Source: Candidatus Saccharimonadota bacterium (lineage in GTDB: Bacteria; Patescibacteriota; Saccharimonadia; Saccharimonadales; Saccharimonadaceae). Taken from it: a stretch of DNA of 64,000 bases. Within the stretch, counting starts at the first letter, position 1. Every line of letters starts with the position of its first letter. Made by a program: the position numbers and the translations under genes. Below are positions 5,173-14,277 of this stretch, one piece after another. The stretch is taken from NCBI GenBank assembly GCA_017552385.1, contig JAFZQB010000011.1:1-64000 (forward strand), written 5' to 3'. Under the pieces are notes generated by a model that did not search any database, was not told the origin of the DNA, and saw nothing but the letters and a program-made list of their open reading frames with translations.

Positions 5173-5523
5173 TTATTTTCTTGGGGTGGAAATGTTGGCA
5201 GGACGGCCGTAGTCGGGGATGACGATGACGTGTTTTTCGCCGTGATGGTCAAAAAGCGGGATGTTTAGATCATGCGAGAGCGTGTTGGCGATGGCGGCGC
5301 CGATGCGGAGGCCGGTGAAAGAGCCAGGTCCGGACATGAAAGTGATTTTGGTGAGGTCGTGGAAGGATTTATTATGTTCGGCTAGCTTGTCTCTCAGAGT
5401 GCCGAGAAGTTTTTCGGCCATTTCGCGCCCGAGGTCTTCTACATACTCGAAAGTCTCACCGGTTTGTGTATTCGTAAGACGAAAATTGGCGACGAAAGTG
5501 GAGGTGTCGAGATAGAGTTCCAT
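5173..5523 (-). CDS. tsaB: TsaB-like protein, N-terminal domain only
   Basis: Member of the TsaB/TsaD ASKHA family. TsaB works with TsaD and TsaE to make N6-threonylcarbamoyladenosine at tRNA position 37. The family signature SGPGSFTGLRIG is clear at about residues 64-75, and MELYLDTST matches the usual first strand. At 116 residues it is about half the usual ~220-240: the second ASKHA lobe is missing and the protein ends shortly after the FDHHGEK region. There is no remnant of the missing half downstream, so this is a shortened protein rather than a fresh frameshift. The ATG overlaps the tsaE stop (TAATG), which indicates translational coupling. Confidence 0.8.
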   Translation of the reverse strand: MELYLDTSTFVANFRLTNTQTGETFEYVEDLGREMAEKLLGTLRDKLAEHNKSFHDLTKITFMSGPGSFTGLRIGAAIANTLSHDLNIPLFDHHGEKHVIVIPDYGRPANISTPRK

Positions 5524-12484: not shown

Positions 12485-12535
12485 ATTATAGCATATGCTC
12501 ACCAGATTGACAAAGAAGCTTAAGCGTGGTATAAT
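12485..12535. promoter_or_regulatory. Divergent valS / ncRNA promoters sharing one -35 hexamer
   Basis: Plus strand: TTGACA (12507-12512), 17 nt, TATAAT (12530-12535). Minus strand: TTGTCA (complement of 12508-12513), 17 nt, TATAAT (12485-12490). The near-palindromic TTGACAA serves as -35 in both directions, so only one polymerase can occupy the site at a time. Confidence 0.85.
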
Positions 12536-12541
12536 GAAAGT

Positions 12542-12890
12542 AGAAGTGGTGGCTTGTAAGAGCACCATTTACTATTTTAAGAAGGGAGGACAAACTAGTC
12601 ATGAAAAGAAGTTTGTCCAAAGAGTCTCGCGTGAACGTCGGTAAGCTTTACCCGGTGGCAGATACGGGGGAGATTCTGTCTCCGCAGGGTGAAGAAATGG
12701 AAAGCAGCGCTGAGGGTACCCCTAGGCGGGATAAGCCGAAATACGTTGGAGGGCATTCGCCCGCTAGGTCCAGCGGAGGGCAGTCTAGCCGCAGGTGCTG
12801 ATCCTGATACGAACGTTGGTGAAACCTCCCTTTGAACTTTGGCCTTCGGGCCGTAACCATAATAAGGTCCCGCGTCATGCGGGGCTTTTT
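12542..12890 (+). ncRNA. Structured RNA candidate, ~350 nt, unidentified
   Basis: A consensus promoter upstream and a perfect terminator at the end define a ~350-nt transcript. Inside are GGTG/CACC (12547-12566 region), an 8-bp hairpin GACAAACT/AGTTTGTC (12589-12596 with 12610-12617), GGAGA/TCTCC, GGGTACCC, and GGCC-TTCG-GGCC near 12840. A long-range 8-bp pairing AAGGGAGG (12582-12589) with CCTCCCTT (12825-12832) closes the whole. A 66-codon frame (12601-12801) exists, but its composition (Ser/Gly/Arg/Pro-rich) is not protein-like and its would-be Shine-Dalgarno is 11 nt away and inside the closing helix. I could not match RNase P, tmRNA, SRP or 6S consensus sequences; it could be a divergent member of one of these. 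Confidence 0.6.
12867..12890 (+). terminator. Terminator of the 12542 RNA
   Basis: GTCCCGC-GTCAT-GCGGGGC followed by TTTTT. Confidence 0.9.
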
Positions 12891-13193
12891 CACTATAAAT
12901 TATATTTCCCTATTATATAGCTATAGCGTTTTCAAGAAATTTGTTGACAACAAAACGTAAACGGTTTATTGCTTTTGACATTTTCAAAATTTATTGCCGT
13001 TTATGGTTTTACTGTTTCGAATTGTTTCTACACTCACCCAAAAGCTTTTTTTCGCAGTTTCGCTTTTGGTTAATTTCATTATATACAAATAGGGGATGCT
13101 AAGTCAAGCGCGTGCTAAATACCGGTGTATATGTAAATATTACTTTGTGGAAAATATATAATAACCTGCTTATTTTGAATTTTTGTAGGTTAA
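12891..13193. other. AT-rich intergenic stretch without a gene
   Basis: No frame of useful length. It contains a TTGTT-GAC-AACAA palindrome near 12952, repeated TTTATTG/CCGTTTATGG words, and the inverted repeat listed separately. One 9-mer (TGTGGAAAA, near 13146) resembles a DnaA box, but there is no cluster and no dnaA or dnaN nearby, so I do not call an origin. Confidence 0.5.
13038..13069. repeat. Inverted repeat in AT-rich spacer
   Basis: CCAAAAGC (13038-13045) and GCTTTTGG (13062-13069), 8 bp perfect, 16-nt loop that is T-rich. Could be a weak terminator or a protein site. Confidence 0.5.
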
Positions 13194-13297
13194 AAAAAGT
13201 GGATATACCCCAACGCCGGCCTGCGGCCGGCGTACGGCTCCAGAAATGTAGAAGGGAAAAAGTGGATATACCCCAAGGCGCTCGCTTCGCTCGCGCC
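13194..13297 (+). repeat. Two copies of a 20-nt repeat, each followed by a GC-rich palindrome
   Basis: The 20-mer starting AAAAAGTGGATATACCCC occurs identically at 13194-13213 and 13257-13276. Copy 1 runs into CGCCGGCC-TGC-GGCCGGCG (13214-13232), copy 2 into the imperfect palindrome GGCGC...GCGCC (13277-13297). The unit (A-tract, GTGGATATACCCC, GC hairpin) is repeated with a 63-nt period. It lies directly upstream of the transposase-like fragment at 13332. Confidence 0.75.
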
Positions 13298-13331
13298 TGT
13301 TTACCGCATGGTTTTGTGGTATTATAAGGTT

Positions 13332-13538
13332 ATGGCATTTATTCGGAAGTTTAAGACTGGATCTGGAAAAACTGGTGTACAAGTATGCTATAAAGACCAG
13401 GGAAAAGTTGTGAAAACTATTCACATTGGTTCGGCTGAAAGCGAAGCGGGGATTATGAGGTTGGTGAAAAAGGCGCAGGGAATTATTGATAAAGATAAGC
13501 GATCTTTGTTTGATTTGTCCGAATTCGATAAGTCTTGA
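13332..13538 (+). CDS. Orphan N-terminal domain of an IS1634-type transposase
   Basis: 68 residues, MAFIRKFKTGSGKTGVQVCY... with IHIGSAESEAGIMRLV. This matches the N-terminal segment typical of IS1634-family transposases (I/F-R-x-x-K-T-x-S-G-x-T-x-V-Q, then E/I-HIGSA and a stretch of Leu/Ala). The catalytic DDE part is absent and the protein ends naturally with FDKS and TGA. Either it is a transposase remnant or a domesticated small protein. The start at 13332 (not the frame start 13308) is supported by TATTAT (13320-13325) ending 6 nt upstream, so the mRNA would be leaderless. The repeated hairpin element just upstream may be part of the same mobile history. Confidence 0.65.
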   Translation: MAFIRKFKTGSGKTGVQVCYKDQGKVVKTIHIGSAESEAGIMRLVKKAQGIIDKDKRSLFDLSEFDKS

Positions 13539-13617: not shown

Positions 13618-14277
13618 ATGCTGTCTATTTCTGTTAAGGCTTTTTCTGACGATGTGCAACGCGTTTGGGCTGAGGTTAATTCGCGTAGGGAAGAAGTGCT
13701 TGAAAGAGAAGAGAAGGTTTTGGCTGGTCGTTCCAGTGAATGGATTCATGGTTTTTGGAGAAACGCGCAGAAGACGCTATTGAGAAAGAGCCGGTGCTTG
13801 CCTTTTGTATCTTTTCTAATCAATCTTCTGTATGGTTGTCTTCAGAAACTGGTATGTCTTTCAATGTTGTTGGTTCTTGTTACGATGATTGTGTATATGT
13901 TCGACGATGCACCTGGTTTTATGGAGATAATTGGTAAGGTTGCTATTATTTTTCTTAAAATTGGCCTATATATCGTGGCTTTGTCGGTGATTTGTTGGTT
14001 TTGTCGCAAGATGTATGAAGGAAATATTAAGGGAAATATCGCTGTCCAGCAGATTTTAACAAAAAGATATAACCTTATCAGTCAATATTCAGATGACGTC
14101 ATTTGCTATGCCGTGGTGATGTTGGCGGCAAGTGAATTAAAGTTGTCGATTCGGGGAAGAACGAAACGGGATCTCAAGAATATGACTCAGAACATGAAGA
14201 ATGGTGTGTTCATGTTGAATACGAATGATGACATCCCGCGAGATGACGAATACGGTGAAGAAGACGGCTCTGAGTAA
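13618..14277 (+). CDS. Uncharacterised membrane protein, 219 aa
   Basis: Not recognised. After a charged N-terminal helix (residues ~1-45), a hydrophobic stretch follows with two clear membrane segments (around LVCLSMLLVLVTMIVYMF, ~80-97, and VAIIFLKIGLYIVALSVICW, ~105-125). A soluble C-terminal domain ends in a very acidic tail (DDEYGEEDGSE). ATG 13618 is preceded by GGTGGTGAGG. A promoter is visible across the previous stop: TTGACT (13535-13540) and TAGAAT with a 16-nt spacer. A terminator follows. The Shine-Dalgarno and separate promoter place it with the accessory genes. Confidence 0.7.
   Translation: MLSISVKAFSDDVQRVWAEVNSRREEVLEREEKVLAGRSSEWIHGFWRNAQKTLLRKSRCLPFVSFLINLLYGCLQKLVCLSMLLVLVTMIVYMFDDAPGFMEIIGKVAIIFLKIGLYIVALSVICWFCRKMYEGNIKGNIAVQQILTKRYNLISQYSDDVICYAVVMLAASELKLSIRGRTKRDLKNMTQNMKNGVFMLNTNDDIPRDDEYGEEDGSE

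Follow-up and report, generated by a model that had tools for sequence, protein, structure and literature searches.

We favour, with moderate confidence, the reading that a transposase DNA-binding domain has been exapted as a regulator which, by binding one operator, governs both its own gene and a divergently transcribed RNA, and that the repeated 20-mer/hairpin units upstream of the gene were added later. The locus lies in a stretch of 64,000 nucleotides from a Candidatus Saccharimonadota bacterium (contig JAFZQB010000011.1, positions 1 to 64,000; hereafter the window) and combines the features by which an exapted regulator is recognized, namely an immobile single-copy gene, purifying selection and a conserved cis site that is co-inherited with the gene.

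The gene (13332-13538, plus strand; ATG at 13332, stop codon at 13536-13538) encodes a protein of 68 residues, of which residues 1-63 can be aligned to the beginning of the IS1634 family transposases (35-40% identity, best E-value 6e-6 in tblastn), the alignment beginning at the first methionine. A first-pass annotation of the sequence had called the protein equal to the first domain of these transposases, which is too strong for this level of identity, although the homology itself holds; it was right that no catalytic part follows, as the ORF ends at residue 68. The aligned transposases sit on actinobacterial plasmids (a context inspected in one example). Searches of Pfam and NCBIfam with this orphan domain yielded nothing credible, and the model of the transposase family (NF033559) misses it. 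Elsewhere in the phylum, full-length relatives are found and the domain mostly forms the start of ORFs of ~500 aa that are bounded by inverted repeats. The orphan differs from such transposases in that it is devoid of the catalytic part, single-copy and vertically kept, and no IS ends were found at its locus.

Orphan proteins of this kind, which the first-pass annotation proposed to look for in other Saccharibacteria, proved to be widespread: a stand-alone orphan of 64-80 aa, nearly always in single copy, is present in 100 of the 118 genus genomes and in all four genomes sampled from the sister genus g76. The remaining 18 genus genomes, several of which are incomplete assemblies, gave no orphan by a profile search either, with a profile that did match elsewhere. 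Among 16 genomes that represent the family's other genera none has an orphan, and across 380 genomes of the phylum short orphans of close type are confined to this genus and its sister. A full-length IS1634 transposase was found in none of 128 genus genomes, by a search that was positive in five control genomes. In a tree of 66 columns, which therefore carries moderate weight, the orphans group together as a single clade, separated from the transposase N-termini by one branch (support 88/84, 90% of bootstrap trees). Length and start of the orphan are alike over ~100 species, and between close species dN is 0.007 against a dS of 0.23-0.26 (dN/dS ~0.03), i.e. the gene is under strong purifying selection. 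That the locus is a decaying IS fragment accompanied by chance repeats would fit the fact that the first domain alone remains, but it is refuted by this conservation and can be given practically no credence. The domestication of an IS1634 DNA-binding domain, as proposed earlier, is well supported by its single copy genus-wide, purifying selection, single clade and the missing parent IS.

Two variants of the domain stand apart. One locus (L219, G078:C15) carries a second, divergent orphan of 95 aa, which has a basic tail and no operator; its genome contains the normal copy as well, and the second orphan may represent bin contamination. Another (L300, genome G422, ~430 bp around the ORF) is a short element whose inverted ends are CTTCCCGACTTG..CAAGTCGGGA and whose coding capacity is limited to the IS1634 N-terminal domain; it is a possible model of the stage that precedes domestication.

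The AlphaFold2 model of the orphan (pLDDT 89.6) has the order E-E-E-H, that is three strands and a helix. This is the layout of sheet-type DNA binders and recalls the arm-type and AP2-like domains (the integrase arm; AtERF1 with its GCC-box), in which a three-stranded antiparallel sheet is followed by a helix. Nevertheless, the fold matches are too weak to serve as proof: a PH domain ranks best (Z 5.2), and the integrase arm domains (Z 3.8-4.2) and the AP2/GCC-box domain (Z 3.5) do not score above unrelated rows (the matching structures, at Z 3.5-4.2, being 3jtz, 3rmp, 3ju0 and 1gcc). Unlike those domains, the orphan has no Pfam sequence match, and no solved structure was found for any IS1634 N-terminus. 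Because a -10-like hexamer stands shortly ahead of the ATG in 102 of 103 relatives (TATTAT at 13320-13325 on the plus strand in the window, from which the transcription start is inferred), the mRNA is predicted to be leaderless; an SD-like motif precedes 9 of the 103.

Upstream of the orphan there is, genus-wide, a direct repeat GGWTGCTAR-N7-GGWTGCTAR with a period of 16 bp (probe form GGTTGCTAAGTCAAGTGGTTGCTAA), the putative tandem operator. In the window it reads GGATGCTAAGTCAAGCGCGTGCTAA (13094-13118, plus strand), just beyond the upstream side of the segment 13194-13538 to which the first-pass annotation applied; its half 2 is degenerate there, with 2 mismatches to the consensus. The operator lies within 600 nt of the orphan in 94 of 103 loci and farther upstream, past an inserted gene, in 5 more (99/103), and besides the inserted-gene cases 0.9 Mb of control strand contained two matches at 3 mismatches. 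Whole-genome scans recovered it in 15 of 17 gene-bearing genomes, nearly always once and adjoining the orphan, versus 2 of 34 genomes that lack the gene. The sister genus shows the operator too, with three of its four copies falling outside the 1-mismatch pattern.

The operator is in contact with, or directly next to, the -35 of a promoter on the minus strand. Since gene and operator are present or absent together, the orphan protein is favoured as the reader of the operator, and its binding there would be the simplest account of this co-inheritance, the fixed 16-bp repeat and the position beside the divergent -35. The distance from operator to orphan start is ~80-290 nt, at which the protein could repress its own gene directly only by looping or if there were a second promoter. 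An origin of the operator as a fossil IS end is not supported, since the inverted repeats of the full-length elements in the phylum (TCCCGACTTG.. and TCCTGACTTC..) have no more than short words (GACTT, CTAA) in common with it.

The divergent promoter is present in all 99 operator loci, and in the window it consists of TTGACT-N18-TATAAT (13078-13107, minus strand; 11/12 consensus). Its predicted transcript is headed by a 5' hairpin of 8 bp (CCAAAAGC/GCTTTTGG, 13038-13069, minus strand), the halves of which covary between loci: by an anchored count over loci with differing loop lengths, 7.05 of 9 positions are paired, compared to 5.96 (maximum 6.28) when the halves are re-dealt. The variable positions show 4-6 standard pair types, and the mean MFE is -12.5 kcal/mol versus -8.3 kcal/mol for shuffled sequences. 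The divergent promoter is followed in most species by a FemAB-like gene, frequently one that has a promoter of its own, and in those species the RNA might serve as the leader of an mRNA. In the clade of the window no gene in sense orientation lies between the promoter and valS; that the promoter, the hairpin and 20-30 nt beyond it persist there all the same speaks for a small RNA. The candidate ncRNA would measure ~130 nt (12935-13070, minus strand), with a putative 3' end at a second hairpin (TAAACGG/CCGTTTA) followed by a T-rich stretch; a canonical terminator was not found for it in the window, and Rfam gave no match.

Between valS and the divergent RNA (region 12507-12895), a gene for a small basic protein of 66 aa (12601-12801, plus strand) is preceded by a 12/12 consensus promoter and an SD and followed by a terminator-like hairpin; the protein has a relative in L224 (55% identity) and no match in Pfam. 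Immediately 3' of the orphan, a gene absent from the corresponding position in L220 encodes a protein of 219 aa (13618-14274, plus strand) that has a hydrophobic middle and is possibly membrane-bound; Pfam and NCBIfam gave no credible family for it.

The 20-mer/hairpin units were correctly described as two identical 20-mers, each leading into a palindrome, ahead of the orphan ORF. The 20-mers (AAAAAGTGGATATACCCCAA; 13194-13213 and 13257-13276, plus strand) have a spacing of 63 and are identical over 20 nt, or 22/23 over the extended repeat. Both GC-rich palindromes are present, and they are of unequal strength: the one at 13213-13233 (ACGCCGGCC-TGC-GGCCGGCGT, no strand) has a stem of 9 bp and is strong (z -4.0), and the one at 13276-13298 (AGGCGCTCGCTTCGCTCGCGCCT, no strand) has an outer stem of 6 bp and an imperfect inner part and is weaker (z -1.5). 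The first is followed by CGGCTCCAG (13235-13243, plus strand) with the motif GCTCCAG, which is found upstream of the orphan in 20 of 103 relatives where ~2 are expected. In general form, a unit consists of A(n)GTGGATATACCCC or a variant (e.g. GGTATTTTACCCC), then a palindrome and often GGCTCCAG. Such units occur in 1-2 copies upstream of the orphan in ~15 of 102 species (11 rows identified by script, the others by eye); the palindromes that further species carry at this position are quite unlike them. Stems of at least 7 bp were counted in 48 of 103 upstream regions versus 52 of 275 random stretches, a rough comparison as the control is mostly coding. In seven loci (L012, L029, L149, L157, L010, L193 and L206) long complex palindromes of ~60-110 bp, unrelated from lineage to lineage, lie between operator and -10. 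Because the stems of the units stay paired while their sequence changes, the units probably have a structural role (as a cruciform or as RNA, which might for example insulate or pause transcription) rather than that of the primary binding site, and they are best read as a lineage-specific later addition.

The units had reminded the earlier annotation of REP/RAYT-like or MITE-like relations, and a short repeat with a palindrome beside a transposase-derived coding sequence does recall such systems. The genome-wide counts (pattern searches) refute the reading of the units as dispersed repeats that a transposase mobilises, which we consider as good as eliminated: in the 766-kb genome the 20-mer occurs twice, both times here, with no third site at up to 3 mismatches, and the hairpin core GCGCTCGCTTCGCTCGCGC of palindrome 2 occurs once, so there is no dispersed family. 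In contrast to REP/RAYT the locus has no HUH (Y1) nuclease, no other transposase is linked to it and the IS1634 catalytic domain is absent; in contrast to MITEs, which have several copies and terminal inverted repeats, it has two local copies in direct orientation. Within the genus (up to 1 mismatch), every exact unit match is at an orphan, and the three single off-locus matches are at chance level (~8 expected by our own estimate). Most matches in a scan of the collection with 14 bases, an insufficient length, were due to chance, but two Saccharibacteria rows are real and mark the organism as a Saccharibacterium: L106, which across the compared region is identical to the genus genome G016, and L119, which comes from the genus genome G203. 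Repeats unique to this spot and a randomly truncated protein had been named beforehand as what would speak against a functional pairing: the former is what we find, whereas the protein is no random truncation.

That the orphan recognises the units, namely A5GTGGATATACCCC (core GGATATACC, elsewhere GGTATTTTACC) or the hairpin, as was suggested at the outset, would agree with their near-exclusive occurrence at the orphan gene, often in two copies and adjoining its promoter. As a general rule it is not supported, since the protein is almost the same in all species and only ~15 of 102 have units, nearly all sharing the different tandem repeat instead; moreover, the spacing of the unit copies varies (63, 67, 86 and 128 bp) while that of the operator half-sites is fixed. 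We regard it as rather improbable. Somewhat less improbable, though still unlikely, is that the orphan is an ordinary conserved protein whose function lies elsewhere (in RNA binding, in the nucleoid or in connection with replication), that the operator is read by another regulator and that DnaA may control the gene. The motif TGTGGWWAA, which resembles a DnaA box, is enriched 44-fold upstream of the orphan genus-wide (TGTGGAAAA at 13146-13154, plus strand, in the window), the dnaA gene has such boxes (TGTGGAAAAC) in its own flanks, and the orphan lies 19-67 kb from dnaA in all 9 genomes that have both on one contig. Against such a role stand the co-occurrence and co-absence of operator and orphan gene, and the finding that the locus is not oriC: this identity, suggested by the DnaA-box-like motifs, was rejected on account of the uniform GC skew of the window, the boxes around dnaA itself and the skew change in G099, which is near dnaA and ~20-35 kb from the locus. 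Contig C4 of G099 contains more TGTGGAAAA clusters (at 5456, 85688, 134344 and 186143), which are off dnaA and have their motifs 12-24 bp apart.

The preferred reading, an exapted domain acting at a single operator, can be put as a sequence of events. A single capture of the N-terminal domain of an IS1634-type transposase would have taken place in an ancestor shared by the genus and its sister, and the domain would have been kept after loss of the catalytic part. The protein, probably as two molecules side by side, would bind the direct repeat next to the divergent -35 and in this way control the divergent RNA as well as, autoregulating its gene, the leaderless mRNA that encodes it; with both under one operator, each genome would hold essentially a single target site. 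Later, in part of the genus, the units would have arisen between operator and promoter. The more specific formulation, in which the target is a hairpin-headed small RNA and protein, operator and ncRNA form a module near the replication origin throughout genus and sister genus, is put forward tentatively.

Catalytically inactive transposon proteins that are reused or act as DNA-binding regulators include the TnpB-derived TldRs and the InsA-type repressors of IS1; TldRs are RNA-guided, InsA resides in a live IS, and both belong to a different protein family from the orphan. The reuse of transposase domains as regulators is already known, but the orphan family, its operator and the divergent RNA are absent from the databases and literature searched, in which no paper joins IS1634 with Saccharibacteria. 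Few clear cases exist of bacterial transposase DNA-binding domains that are kept without the nuclease. Here, ~100 species of episymbionts with tiny genomes retain the same 68 residues, which implies that a useful function must exist, and with one operator per genome the question is directly testable. The locus allows parent IS, orphan and site to be compared inside one phylum. Regulation in this phylum is almost unexplored, and the divergent RNA, conserved as it is, would there constitute a new family of RNAs.
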